Notes under the pieces: generated by a model
What the model was told of the DNA's origin: nothing
The model's input: the letters and a program-made list of their open reading frames with translations, nothing else
The model's database searches: none
Shown here: positions 4,012 to 28,839 of the stretch, in pieces
Numbering within the stretch: position 1 is the first letter of the stretch
Layout of the letters: each line of letters starts with the position of its first letter
Assembly (NCBI GenBank): GCA_016938735.1
Contig: JAFGUB010000049.1
Span: 1 to 40,814 of the forward strand
DNA length: 40,814 nt
From: Campylobacterales bacterium
GTDB taxonomy: Bacteria > Campylobacterota > Campylobacteria > Campylobacterales > Sulfurimonadaceae
Direction: 5' to 3'
Position numbers and translations under genes: made by a program

Positions 4012-4311
4012 TTGAGTACGAAAAGAGCGTATGAGATCACATCTGAGCTGTCGCTCGCAGAACCCAAAATGTACAAAGTCGTGATGCTCAACGATGATTA
4101 CACGTCGATGGATTTTGTCATCGACATCTTGATGAGCATCTTTCACAAAAGCTATCAGGAGGCAGAAGCCATTATGCTTGACATTCACAAAAAGAACCGC
4201 GGCGTCTGCGGGGTCTACACCTACGAGGTGGCCGAAACGAAGGTGGCTCAGGTGAGCCGCTTGGCGCGCGAGCAGGGTTTTCCGCTCAAAGCCGTGATTG
4301 AGGAGGCGTAA
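4012..4311 (+). CDS. clpS: ATP-dependent Clp protease adaptor ClpS
   Basis: Recognises N-degron substrates (Leu, Phe, Trp, Tyr at the N terminus) and hands them to ClpA-ClpP. The 99-residue protein has the ClpS core: YKVVMLNDDYTSMDFVI with the Asn-Asp-Asp binding-pocket residues, the HKKNRGVCGVYTYEVAETK stretch with the conserved His, and a C-terminal helix. The start codon is TTG at 4012 with AAGGATC upstream. It is followed without a gap by clpA, and then by aat, so adaptor, unfoldase and the transferase that creates the degron are made together. Confidence 0.95.
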   Translation: MSTKRAYEITSELSLAEPKMYKVVMLNDDYTSMDFVIDILMSIFHKSYQEAEAIMLDIHKKNRGVCGVYTYEVAETKVAQVSRLAREQGFPLKAVIEEA

Positions 4312-6492
4312 ATGATCAGTGCCGAACTCAATGCCGTCTTTCAAAAAGCGCTCAGCTTCGCCAAAGATCAGCGCCACGAATACCTCACCATCGAGCATGT
4401 CTTTTTCGCCGCGACGGGCTCCAAAGAGGGGATCGACATTTTGCGCGAGTGCGGCGCGGACGCGGCGCAGCTGCGTGAGCAGATGGGGCGCTACATCCAA
4501 GAGCACATCCATCCGCTGCCTGAGGGGGTGCGCCAGGAGCCCTTCGAGACGGTCGCGCTCTCAAGGCTGATCGATCAGATGGTGCGCCATATCCAAAGTG
4601 CGCAGAAGCAGCAAGCCGACGTCGGGGATCTGTTGGCGGCCATCTTTGAGGAGGAGCACTCCTACGCCGCGATGCTGCTGGGTGAGCACGACATCAAAAG
4701 GGTGGACGTGCTGGAGGTGATCTCGCACCGCGACATCGAAGCGCAAGGAGGCAGCGACGAGGAGAGCGCACTCTCTAAGTACGCCATTGAGCTGGTCGCA
4801 AAAGCCAAGATCGGCAAGATCGATCCGGTGGTGGGTCGCGGGGATGAAGTGGAGCGTGTCATTCAGACGCTCTGTCGGCGTAAAAAGAACAATCCGCTGC
4901 TGGTCGGCGAGCCGGGCGTGGGCAAAACGGCCATCGCAGAGGGGTTGGCATTGCGCATCGCTGCCGACGAGGTGCCGGACATTTTGCGCCACGCGCCGCT
5001 CTATGCGCTTGATCTGGGCGCGATGCTGGCGGGGACTAAATACCGAGGCGACTTTGAAAAGCGGCTCAAAGCGGTGATTGATGAGCTTAAACAGCACCAA
5101 AATGCCATTATGTTTATCGACGAGATTCACACCATCGTGGGCGCGGGCGCGGTGAGCGGGGGGAGCATGGACGCCTCCAATCAGCTCAAACCCGCGCTTG
5201 CTTCGGGAGAGCTGCGCTGTATGGGGGCGACCACCTTTAGCGAGTACCGCAACATCTTTGAAAAAGATCGGGCGCTCAGCCGCCGTTTTGCCAAGATCGA
5301 CGTGGACGAGCCGACGCAGGAGGAGAGCTTTTTGATCCTTAAGGGGCTGCGCGACAAGTATGAGAAGCACCACGGCGTCAAGTACACCGACAAGGCGCTG
5401 CGCGCGGCGGTGGAGCTCTCAAAGAAGTTTATTTCCGAGCGCTTTTTGCCCGACGTGGCGATCGATCTGATCGATGAGTCGGGGGCTTCGTTTCATCTTA
5501 AAAAGCACAAGCGCACCACCGTGACTCCTTATGATATCGAAGCGATTATCGCCAAAATCACGGGCGTGCCGACGTCGCGCATCGGCGAAGACGACATCGA
5601 AGCGCTGCGCCATCTCGAAGCACGGCTCAAAACGCGGGTGATCGGGCAGGATCGGGCGGTCGAAATCGTCGCAAAGGCGATCAAACGTTCACGCGTGGGG
5701 TTGGGTGCCACAGATCGTCCCATCGCTTCATTTTTGTTTGCGGGGCCTACGGGGGTTGGTAAAACGGAGCTGGCGCGCGCACTGGCGGAGGTGAGCGGAG
5801 TGCATTTCGAGCGCTTTGATATGAGCGAATATATGGAGAAACATGCGGTAAGCCGTCTGGTGGGCTCACCTCCGGGTTATGTGGGGTTTGAGCAGGGTGG
5901 CTTGCTGACCGAAGCGATCCGCAAGCACCCCTACACGGTGCTTTTGCTTGATGAGATTGAAAAGGCGCATCCCGAGCTGATCAACATTTTGCTGCAGGTA
6001 ATGGACAGCGCGACGCTCACTGACAACAACGGCTACAAGGCTAATTTTCGCAATGTCATTATCATCATGACTTCCAACGTCGGGGCATCTGAAGCCAAAG
6101 TGATGGGCTTTAACGCCGATCAGTCACTCTCGCGCGGCAATGCCCTCAAATCCTTTTTTACTCCGGAATTTCGCAACCGCCTTGACGCCGTGGTGGAGTT
6201 TGCGCCGCTTGAGATGCCCATTGTCGAGCAGATCGTGCGTAAGTTTATCGTTGAACTCAACACGGATCTGAAGAAGAAAAAGGTATCGATTACGCTGAGC
6301 GACAAAGCTGTCGGTTATCTGGCGCAGATGGGCTACGATCCGCAGATGGGTGCGCGCCCGCTTGCTCGGGTGATCCAAGTGCGCATTAAAGACCCGCTCA
6401 CGGAAGCGCTGCTGTTCGGGACGCTGAAAAACGGCGGTAAAGTAGCGATTGACTACCAAAAATCCGCCCTCAGTTTTGACTATTTGGCGTGA
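4312..6492 (+). CDS. clpA: ATP-dependent Clp protease ATP-binding subunit ClpA
   Basis: Hexameric AAA+ unfoldase that feeds substrates to ClpP. The 726-residue protein has an N-terminal Clp repeat domain (about 1-145), which binds ClpS. The first AAA+ module has Walker A GEPGVGKT at 199-206 and Walker B MFIDEIHT. The second has Walker A GPTGVGKT at 478-485 and [11 protein letters not shown]. The C-terminal domain contains the [10 protein letters not shown] block. The short linker without a long coiled coil distinguishes it from ClpB. Start ATG directly abuts the clpS stop; the stop overlaps the aat GTG by four bases. It contains no TTACATGTAA copy over 2.2 kb. Confidence 0.96.
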
Positions 6493-7166
6493 TTCCGCAG
6501 CTTCGCTATCAGCTCGCCTTCCCTGATCCGCGTAGTGCCCATGAGAGCGGCATTGTCGCTTGGGGCGGCGATCTCTCCCCGAGTCGTTTGATGCTGGCGT
6601 ATCGAAGCGGCATCTTCCCTTGGTATTCCAAGGATGATCCAATTTTATGGTGGTCGCCCGATCCGCGCCTGATTTTGCCACTCTCAGCGTTCAAGTTACG
6701 GCGCTCGTTGCAAAAGCGGCGCAAGCACTTTGAGATCCGCTACGACAGCGCGTTTTGCGAGGTGATCCGCCACTGCGCGCAGGTGCCGCGCATGGGGCAG
6801 CAGGGGAGCTGGATTGTGCCTGAGATGATCGAAGCCTTTGAAGTGCTCCACGCAATGGGTTACGCGCACAGTGTCGAGGCCTATCATGAGGGTGTTTTGG
6901 CGGGCGGACTCTATGGCGTCGTTGTAGGTGGGGTCTTTTGCGGCGAATCGATGTTCGCCCTTGAGCGTGACGCTTCCAAAGCGGCGCTCGCACAGCTTGT
7001 GGAAGATTTGAGGCTTTGGGGTTTTGGATTCATCGACGCTCAGGTGCCGACAGAGCATCTCAAGAGTCTGGGGGCGATCGAAGTAGGGCGCGATCTTTTT
7101 TTGGAACAGCTCGCGCTTTGGCGGGACGTGGATACCGACCGCGCCGCTTTTGTGATGAAAAATTGA
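6489..7166 (+). CDS. aat: leucyl/phenylalanyl-tRNA-protein transferase
   Basis: Transfers Leu or Phe from aminoacyl-tRNA to proteins beginning with Lys or Arg, marking them for ClpS-ClpAP. The 225-residue protein has the family hallmarks: FPDPRSAHESGIVAWGGDLSP, RSGIFPWYSKDDPILWWSPDPR, GSWIVPEMIEAF, and GVFCGESMF near residue 155, followed by FIDAQVPTEHLKSLGA. The start is GTG at 6489 overlapping the clpA stop (GTGA), a typical coupled arrangement. Confidence 0.95.
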   Translation: MIPQLRYQLAFPDPRSAHESGIVAWGGDLSPSRLMLAYRSGIFPWYSKDDPILWWSPDPRLILPLSAFKLRRSLQKRRKHFEIRYDSAFCEVIRHCAQVPRMGQQGSWIVPEMIEAFEVLHAMGYAHSVEAYHEGVLAGGLYGVVVGGVFCGESMFALERDASKAALAQLVEDLRLWGFGFIDAQVPTEHLKSLGAIEVGRDLFLEQLALWRDVDTDRAAFVMKN

Positions 7167-26747: not shown

Positions 26748-26775
26748 GGCGCTTTTGAGAAGCGCTACTTCTTTT
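26748..26775 (+). terminator. probable terminator after the LysR-type gene
   Basis: Stem GGCGCTT (26748-26754) with AAGCGCT (26760-26766), loop TTGAG, then ACTTCTTTTT. It starts at the first base after the lysR stop and overlaps the stop codon of the convergent gene. The T-run is interrupted. Confidence 0.55.
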
Positions 26776-27229
26776 TAAAAAACTTCTGATTTTCGGGGTT
26801 GGAGAGCAGTGCTTGCATGGAATTTTTGATCCCCTCTTCGCTTTCGCTAGGCGTAGAAGCAGTGCGGATGAGGCGGGGCTGGGCTAGGTTGATGAAGATC
26901 GGGGTTTCGTCGATGATGATCTGCATGATGCTCAGCAGCGGCACGGTGACAAAACTACCGATGTTTTCGGGTCCGAATCCCGCTTCAAAGAGCAGTTCGT
27001 CTTGTTCGATATGGGCCGATTCGAAGGTGTAGCCGGCTAAAAAAAAGAGGGTCATCGGGCGAAATTCGCTGCTAATGTGCCGAGGCAGTTCGGGCTCAAA
27101 GCGCAGGTAGTCGATCTTGCACAAAATACCAAAGTTCTGTTCATTCTCAAAGAGGTAGATGAGCAGATCTTGTATATGCTTGCGCATCATATTGCCATAT
27201 CCGGCGTTGTTCACCACATCGATCAACAT
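26765..27229 (-). CDS. uncharacterised small protein, possibly SspB-like
   Basis: 154 residues, no signal peptide or membrane segment. I do not recognise it firmly. The order of elements resembles the ClpXP adaptor SspB: an N-terminal helix ending in a chain-terminus motif (HIQDLLIYLFENEQ), a strand with KIDYLRFEP, a central TLFFLAGYTFESAHI, then ELLFEAGFGPENIGSFVTVPLLSIMQIII. SspB has an equivalent LNIAPRAV...F.ARFGG...VPL.AVLAIYA pattern. A low-complexity linker follows, with a short basic tail (QKFFKKK) where SspB carries its ClpX-binding peptide. This is inference from pattern only. It lies 10 bases after the pabC stop on the same strand. Confidence 0.75.
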   Translation of the reverse strand: MLIDVVNNAGYGNMMRKHIQDLLIYLFENEQNFGILCKIDYLRFEPELPRHISSEFRPMTLFFLAGYTFESAHIEQDELLFEAGFGPENIGSFVTVPLLSIMQIIIDETPIFINLAQPRLIRTASTPSESEEGIKNSMQALLSNPENQKFFKKK

Positions 27230-27239
27230 GCGTTAGCCT

Positions 27240-27821
27240 TTAGCTTTTTAGCGCCATTATACCATCTTGCACGATGTGAAACCCCAGCATAGCATTGAGC
27301 AGCGCCAAGCCTTCATATTGCGAGAGTTTATCAACCCTGATGGGGCGTACATGTAAGCGCCCCTCATCAATAAGCCGTGCGCGCGTAGTCCCCGCTAGCA
27401 GCGGTGTATGTGGCGTATACCAAAGCCCGTTCTGCAAGAAAGCGACGTTGGCGATGGGGGTGTCGGTGATATAACCGTTTTGAACGATCAGGACCGAGTC
27501 GCACGCTCCGTTTTGGGTCTGGAGCGCATCAAGGGCGCTGCGGTCGGCGTATTTGTACATGTAATCAATCCGCTCGGCCTGAATGAGCCGCAATGAGCGC
27601 GGGGGATGCGGTGTATAGGGGTGGTAACCGGTTTGGATACCGTGCGCGTCGTAGAGGACGCGGCAGCGCCAGAGTCCGCTTGGCGGTGGATCGAGCAGGG
27701 AGGCGAGATCATAATGCGCGTCGATACTGTGGGCATAAAGGGTGCGTTCAAGTCGTGATTGATGGTAGCTTATATGCGCTATTTTTCCCTCAGAGGCGCA
27801 CAGCGTCTCGAGAAAACGCAC
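27240..27821 (-). CDS. pabC: class IV aminotransferase, probable aminodeoxychorismate lyase
   Basis: Removes pyruvate from aminodeoxychorismate to yield p-aminobenzoate. The protein has about 193 residues from GTG at 27821, directly behind the cysK stop; the open frame continues upstream but antisense-like inside cysK, so the longer form is rejected. Visible family features are FLETLCASEGKIAHISYHQSRLERT, the PLP Lys candidate in DYMYKYADR, the NGYITDTPIANVAF block with Glu replaced by Thr-Asp, and TPLLAGTTRARLI. Short class IV enzymes of this type are typical in Campylobacterota. D-amino acid or branched-chain specificity is not excluded. Two palindrome variants lie inside. Confidence 0.82.
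   Translation of the reverse strand: MRFLETLCASEGKIAHISYHQSRLERTLYAHSIDAHYDLASLLDPPPSGLWRCRVLYDAHGIQTGYHPYTPHPPRSLRLIQAERIDYMYKYADRSALDALQTQNGACDSVLIVQNGYITDTPIANVAFLQNGLWYTPHTPLLAGTTRARLIDEGRLHVRPIRVDKLSQYEGLALLNAMLGFHIVQDGIMALKS
27347..27356. repeat. variant palindrome GTACATGTAA in pabC
   Basis: One base from consensus; on the coding strand TTACATGTAC, read Leu-His-Val-Arg. Confidence 0.85.
27555..27564. repeat. variant palindrome GTACATGTAA in pabC, Tyr-Met-Tyr frame
   Basis: On the coding strand TTACATGTAC, read Asp-Tyr-Met-Tyr-Lys. The variant last base prevents an in-frame TAA that the exact palindrome would create. Confidence 0.85.
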
Positions 27822-27822
27822 G

Positions 27823-28749
27823 TTACGAATCGCTAAAGAGCGCCGTGGAGATATAGCGCTCTCCGGTGTCGCAGAGGATCGTGACCACTGTTTTGCCCTG
27901 ATTTTCGGGTCTGGAGGCGACCTGCATGGCGGCAAAAACATTGGCACCGGCGGAGATACCCACCAGCAGCCCTTCGCTGCGTGCGAGCATCTTGGCCGTG
28001 GCGATAGCGTCTTCGTTGCTGACGGTGAGCACCTCGTTGTAGATGGCGGTATTGAGCACTTGGGGGACAAAACCCGCACCGATGCCCTGAATCTTGTGCG
28101 CACCGGGCGCTCCGCCTGAGAGCACGCTGGAGTCTTGGGGTTCGACGGCGATCACCTGCAGATGCGGTAGCGCTTCGCGCAGGACTTCTGAGGTGCCCGT
28201 CAGGGTGCCGCCGGTGCCTACGGCAGCGACGAAGATGTCGATTTTGCCCTCAGTGTCGCGCAAAATTTCCGGTGCGGTCGTATCGCGGTGGATTTGGGGA
28301 TTGGCAGGGTTTTCAAACTGCTGCAAAATGATCGATCCGGGAAGCTCACGCTGCAGCTCTACGGCCCGCTCAATCGCACCGCGCATCCCTGCGGCGGCAG
28401 GGGTGAGCACCAGCTCCGCCCCAAGCGCCTTGAGCAGGTTGCGCCGCTCGACGCTCATCGATTCGGGCATGGTGAGGATGAGCCGTAGCCCCAACGCCGC
28501 GCAGATGGAGGCGAGGGCGATACCGGTATTGCCGCTGGTGGGTTCGATGATGACGCCGTGCTCTTTAAGCCGCCCCTCTTGGAGTGCGCTGTGGATCATG
28601 TTAAAGCCGATGCGGTCTTTGACGGAGCTGGTAGGGTTCATAAATTCGCATTTTCCAAGGATGGTCGCGCCGCTTTGCGATGAGGGGGCGCCCAGGCGAA
28701 CCAGAGGGGTATTGCCGATGAGCTCGGTGATATTGTGCGCAATCTTCAT
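27823..28749 (-). CDS. cysK: cysteine synthase A (O-acetylserine sulfhydrylase)
   Basis: PLP enzyme making cysteine from O-acetylserine and sulfide. From ATG at 28749 (MKIAHNITELIGNTPLVRL) the protein has 308 residues; an upstream in-frame ATG at 28788 is rejected because the conserved N terminus begins at MKIAHN. The PLP Lys is in MNPTSSVKDRIG, the substrate loop is EPTSGNTG, and the phosphate-binding loop GTGGTLTGTS. Its stop is one base from the pabC start. Sulfide-based cysteine synthesis fits a sulfur-metabolising host, as does the MetY-type enzyme at 2.7 kb. Confidence 0.95.
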   Translation of the reverse strand: MKIAHNITELIGNTPLVRLGAPSSQSGATILGKCEFMNPTSSVKDRIGFNMIHSALQEGRLKEHGVIIEPTSGNTGIALASICAALGLRLILTMPESMSVERRNLLKALGAELVLTPAAAGMRGAIERAVELQRELPGSIILQQFENPANPQIHRDTTAPEILRDTEGKIDIFVAAVGTGGTLTGTSEVLREALPHLQVIAVEPQDSSVLSGGAPGAHKIQGIGAGFVPQVLNTAIYNEVLTVSNEDAIATAKMLARSEGLLVGISAGANVFAAMQVASRPENQGKTVVTILCDTGERYISTALFSDS

Positions 28750-28839
28750 AGTGTGCCTTTGAAAAAAAGTGCGCTTATCATAGCTCAATTCGCTTTGAAG
28801 TCGATGAAAGTTGACTAAAGCACTAATCTTGCTAAAGTT

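Follow-up and report, generated by a model that had tools for sequence, protein, structure and literature searches.

A protein family found throughout Campylobacterota as a candidate third lineage of the ClpXP adaptor SspB

The gene at 26765..27229 on the minus strand of the window (the whole 40,814-nucleotide stretch of Campylobacterales DNA analysed here) encodes a 154-residue protein, and the best reading of its family, which extends throughout Campylobacterota, is a third SspB lineage beside the gamma/beta- and alphaproteobacterial SspBs, phylum-wide and with its own candidate ClpX-docking tail. We speak of a third lineage because the family has the fold, layout and homology of SspB in common with the known branches, yet falls below the Pfam cut-off and has neither of the known docking motifs. 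We put the probability that the family is a divergent SspB, working as a ClpXP substrate-delivery adaptor, at about 0.72, and regard its SspB fold and homology as very likely. The sequence-only reading had raised the idea of a divergent SspB, and the idea is supported for fold, homology and architecture.

In E. coli, SspB holds part of the ssrA tag with its core, reaches out by means of a linker and docks through its C-terminal XB peptide onto the zinc-binding domain of ClpX (PMC8138137; PMC12373786). The remark in the sequence-only reading that Campylobacterota are usually said to lack this adaptor agrees with reviews that place SspB in certain proteobacteria only (PMC8138137) and with a 2008 study of tmRNA in H. 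pylori, which states that SspB is predicted to be absent there, describes a tag without the SspB-recognition motif and built part of its interpretation on the absence of SspB (PMC2584231). Searching the non-subscription literature for SspB together with Campylobacter or with Epsilonproteobacteria turned up no account of this protein. A conserved SspB homologue in nearly all Campylobacterota would alter the understanding of how tagged proteins are turned over in the phylum. A gene at present labelled hypothetical would gain a candidate name, the delivery of tags ending in AKAA and AVA(A) would become directly testable in these bacteria, and the homologue could supply an orthogonal set of tag, adaptor and docking peptide for protein-degradation tools.

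The gene, its neighbours and its spread

The open reading frame is genuine and has exactly the coordinates, strand and length first assigned to it, beginning with an ATG. From the sequence, a ribosome-binding-like site, AAAGG (27237..27241, minus strand), ends 7 nt before this ATG, overlapping the stop codon (TAA) of the gene upstream. That neighbour is a pabC-like gene for an aminotransferase of class IV (27240..27947, start provisional, minus strand; PF01063, E 1.4e-15), itself preceded by a cysteine synthase-like cysK (27823..28788, minus strand; PF00291, E 9.5e-74), so that our gene closes a cysK-pabC-orf block. Both neighbours are conserved. The loci fetched from relatives keep the order lnt-cysK-pabC-orf followed by divergent lysR and uvrD, with cysK, pabC and lysR each present in 60 of 68 loci. 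The operon is metabolic and the neighbours give no pointer toward proteolysis, which counts against the adaptor reading.

Of 60 close relatives, 57 carry an orthologue, as do 288 of 296 good Campylobacterales genomes and 387 of 397 well-assembled genomes sampled across the phylum, with essentially a single copy in each. This is far beyond chance, and the gene is real and old. Carriers include Sulfurimonas, Sulfuricurvum, Nitratiruptor, Sulfurovum, Sulfurovum mangrovi and Helicobacter heilmannii, and the records of the last two label the orthologue "hypothetical protein". A match is consistently missing in two genera, g83 (f14; all four listed) and g97 (f11; all three listed), which suggests a loss particular to these lineages or extreme divergence. 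As a side observation, the record that supplied the H. heilmannii orthologue, a 'prophage' (BK070128.1), also encodes acetate kinase and oligoendopeptidase F, and its limits therefore probably take in host chromosome.

Predicted fold and sequence relationship to SspB

An AlphaFold2 model of the window protein, built on 53 orthologues, has a mean pLDDT of 80, with residues 11-110 mostly above 90 and residues 121-133 disordered (pLDDT below 50). Its globular, SspB-like domain spans residues 9-117 (26879..27205, minus strand) and begins with a helix (9-28), which is followed by strands at 33-38, 43-45, 59-64, 72-75, 78-85, 90-97, 101-106 and 109-113. The helix, strands, flexible linker and short tail (ending KFFKKK) described from the sequence are all present in the model.

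Searching the PDB with this model, Foldseek placed SspB at ranks 1-19, with probabilities from 1.00 down to 0.96; the matched structures come from E. coli, H. influenzae, Agrobacterium and Caulobacter, spanning gamma- and alphaproteobacteria, and the best match outside SspB has a probability of 0.38. The search was repeated with a model of an orthologue that shares 38% identity with the window protein (alignment A3; core pLDDT ~95-98). SspB again took ranks 1-18 and 20, in the probability range 0.96-1.00, and the top match outside SspB was a VirK protein (rank 19, probability 0.63). It is striking that a single fold family fills nearly every top place. The comparison with SspB proposed in the sequence-only reading thus put SspB at the head of the PDB list with two independent models, and by these models and ranks the protein belongs to the SspB fold. 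In the viral library BFVD, phage proteins named stringent starvation protein B were among the top matches. The relationship is a distant one, since Foldseek E-values against SspB are only ~1e-3 and TM-scores on target length lie at a moderate 0.47-0.65, and the structural alignments with SspB have a sequence identity of 6-17%. Such identities and TM-scores would suit a resemblance of fold without homology or common function, arising by convergence on a small alpha-plus-beta domain. We consider this explanation very improbable and largely refuted already, as SspB entries alone match with high probability for two different models, and independent sequence models (Pfam, NCBIfam and hhalign) choose SspB over one co-linear region.

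The sequence comparisons reach SspB through intermediates. The window protein gave no match in scans of Pfam, PF04386 included, or of NCBIfam. Across 298 Campylobacterota genomes, PF04386 matched nothing above its gathering cut-off of 27 bits, the best member scoring 23.8 bits; the strongest match (E 5.4e-5) coincides in its coordinates with the orthologue of our gene, in which several of the next-best matches also lie. When orthologues were scanned against all of Pfam, PF04386 was the sole family matched by four divergent ones (E 4.9e-5, 4.1e-4, 1.5e-3 and 0.012), and four others had no PF04386 match. Six NCBIfam models, each named "ClpXP protease specificity-enhancing factor", topped the scan of a 20-member alignment (best E 0.0013).

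The profile-profile comparison suggested at the outset pointed the same way: with hhalign the family aligned to nine gamma/beta SspBs with P 5.6e-4, at a score of 28.1 that exceeded the maximum from 200 column shuffles (25.1), and a more diverse family alignment gave P 2e-4, co-linear across 86 columns. Against an alpha-SspB profile the result was P 0.03, which is weak and uninformative alone. Because the hhalign probabilities against SspB are only 30-47% and no single test is decisive, the sequence case rests on the agreement of the tests. With a gamma-SspB HMM, the best Campylobacterota member scored 19.8 bits and the best accepted alphaproteobacterial SspB 24.0 bits, so that the Campylobacterota family and the alpha branch stand at similar distances from gamma SspB. 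Homology is therefore reached through PF04386, NCBIfam and hhalign together, and we file the family neither under PF04386 nor with the SspBs of LRVVK type.

A confident match to another family, which the sequence-only reading had named as grounds for abandoning SspB, was looked for and none was found. A PDB sequence search with alignment A1 gave no match; one with A4 gave designed helical-repeat proteins (through the N-terminal helix), ribosomal S5 and a reductase, all judged spurious. PHROGs returned weak unrelated matches only, and weak Pfam matches, for example of two members to DUF2286 (E 0.018), were put down to chance.

Groove, tail and possible partners

Across 76 family members, core residues 29-117 have a mean column identity of 64%, with the most conserved sites in FEAGFG and in L-A-G-Y-T-F-E-S (the LAGYTFESA region). 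The signature FEAGFG (residues 81-86; 26972..26989, minus strand) aligns with FNARFG, residues 72-77 of E. coli SspB, by both hhalign and MAFFT, and its F81, A83 and G84 are invariant in the 76 sequences. The Arg of the SspB motif FNARF, which sits at the tag-binding groove, is thereby replaced by an invariant Gly. Since the groove is clearly divergent, it may take another ligand.

Beyond the core lies a flexible linker (residues 118-133; 26831..26878, minus strand) that takes in the disordered stretch, has a mean column identity of 29% and varies from 9 to 43 residues among the 76 members. It leads to a conserved C-terminal peptide (residues 134-154; 26768..26830, minus strand) with the core motif LLSNPENQKFFKKK, a candidate AAA+ docking tail. 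Conservation of this tail among orthologues, another check put forward with the original idea, is clear: residues 137-149 have a mean column identity of 73%, a motif like LSNPENxKFxKK is present in 67 of 76 members, most tails read LLSNPENxKFxKK, and the most divergent members retain versions such as MFLSRNRDIFSK and IFLNKNRNLFKK. The family thus has the SspB layout of a flexible linker and a conserved candidate docking peptide, and it is because this arrangement of core, linker and docking peptide is that of E. coli SspB that we infer an adaptor function as the best explanation.

The groove of the globular domain would bind a degron peptide, for which the N-terminal part of the tmRNA tag in Campylobacterota (of the ANNTNYRPALAVA and ANNVKFAPAYAKAA types) is a plausible candidate, while the conserved tail would dock on ClpX, probably on its N-terminal zinc-binding domain. 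Tethering of this kind would let ClpX grip the end of the tag and feed the protein to ClpP. Whether the tmRNA tag is the main ligand we judge an even question, and substrates beyond tmRNA-tagged proteins are possible. Alternatively, the protein could be an SspB homologue that has been exapted for general peptide binding and has no proteolytic role, associated for example with the ribosome or the envelope. A groove region that is strongly conserved yet unlike that of SspB (LAGYTFESA, FEAGFG) and the metabolic operon both fit this view, but a variable linker that carries a fixed peptide at the C-terminus is better suited to an adaptor that tethers than to a binder acting by itself, and we hold the peptide binder to be distinctly unlikely.

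As to a partner for the proposed adaptor, the source genome encodes two ClpX paralogues with a zinc-binding domain (C41:28474-28584 and C38:30569-30673), one directly after clpP and the other after an lpxA-like gene. The window also holds the ClpS-ClpA system, as had been noted from the sequence: 4012-4311 looks like ClpS by size, position and inspection of its sequence by eye, and Pfam assigns 4312-6492 to Clp. With an aat-like gene (leucyl/phenylalanyl-tRNA transferase, assigned by eye as was ClpS), these genes form a compact N-degron cluster at 4012-7166. The presence of ClpS-ClpA is no evidence for SspB. An SspB-fold adaptor might instead serve another AAA+ machine (ClpA, Lon, FtsH or HslU, for instance), with its tail re-tailored away from ClpX; a tail other than LRVVK, the encoding of ClpA and ClpS within the same window and a genome with more than one candidate unfoldase, the two ClpX paralogues included, would all allow this. 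Both characterised SspB branches, however, serve ClpX, a ClpX with the zinc-binding domain is present, and the aromatic-basic end of the tail also occurs in alphaproteobacterial SspB, which likewise lacks LRVVK. We therefore think another machine unlikely, though the least improbable of the alternatives, and keep ClpX as the preferred partner.

All eleven relatives tested have a tmRNA, with tags that include ANNTNYRPALAVA, ANNTNYRPAYAVA, ANNTNYRPAYAYAA, ANNSNYRPAYALAA, ANNTDYRPAYAVAA, ANNVKFAPAYAKAA and VNNADYAPAYAKAA; other tags were also read. The relatives' tags begin ANN/VNN-x-x-[YF], and a start of the form A-N-x-x-[NDK]-[YF], or more narrowly A-N-N-x-[NDK]-[YF], appears to resemble the part of AANDENY that SspB reads. 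Campylobacterota tags are of two types, RPA(L/Y)A and APAYAKAA, the latter being that of H. pylori and Campylobacter. The H. pylori tag is reported to lack the SspB-recognition motif and to depend little on its terminal AA (PMC2584231), which counts against the adaptor reading. In the source draft genome, Infernal gave tRNA-like fragments only, and neither this search nor tag patterns located a tmRNA; one tag-like pattern lies inside a coding gene, at a site that lacks a tmRNA. The draft is an estimated 99.7% complete, and the missing tmRNA is probably an assembly gap. Also to be set against the adaptor reading are this missing tmRNA, the failure of the window protein to match Pfam or NCBIfam, the PF04386 scores below the cut-off, the moderate TM-scores, the tail lacking LRVVK and the Gly in place of the Arg of FNARF.

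A wider picture can be drawn in which SspB is phylum-wide (in Helicobacter, and in Campylobacter by taxonomy), LLSNPENxKFxKK represents a class of AAA+ docking peptides that is new, and a re-specified groove reads a different degron, giving an orthogonal adaptor-tag pair from the base of the phylum. For this combination we see the odds as level.

Comparison with the known SspB branches

The gamma/beta SspBs (PF04386; E. coli and H. influenzae; 1ox9, 1ou9, 1yfn and 8et3) have the same fold and order of elements as those predicted for the family. Common to both are the motif D/E-x-[LVI]-x-F-x-A-[GR]-F-[GS], the strand-turn VP-x(2)-[SA]-[IV], and a flexible linker that ends in a short conserved C-terminal peptide. 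The Campylobacterota proteins differ in scoring under the PF04386 cut-off, in having Gly for the Arg of FNARF, and in carrying 2 to 4 additional residues after FEAGFG. Their tail reads LSNPENxKFxKK where gamma/beta SspBs have the ClpX-binding LRVVK or something similar, and their gene adjoins pabC and cysK, whereas that of gamma/beta SspB adjoins sspA.

SspB-alpha (Caulobacter 2qas/2qaz and Agrobacterium 2nys) is also among the structural matches, with a best TM-score of 0.65 for the orthologue model against 2nys_B. In the loci read, the SspB-alpha gene, like that of the family, lies away from sspA. Its tail too is without LRVVK and has an aromatic and basic end (SFRKKN, AFRKKS). However, the core of the alpha tail is VVSLDxF (as in VVSLDSFRKKN) and that of the family LLSNPENxKF, so that only the aromatic-basic end is common to the two and the family does not have VVSLDxFRKK.

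Pseudomonas megaplasmids bear divergent extra SspB genes, in two cases after a NUDIX hydrolase gene. The phage SspB-like proteins matched structurally in BFVD, from Aeromonas phage phiA8-29 and Pseudomonas phage Noxifer, belong to a group that is mostly uncharacterised, and their gene context gives no orthology with the family; their likeness to the Campylobacterota proteins is one of predicted structure.
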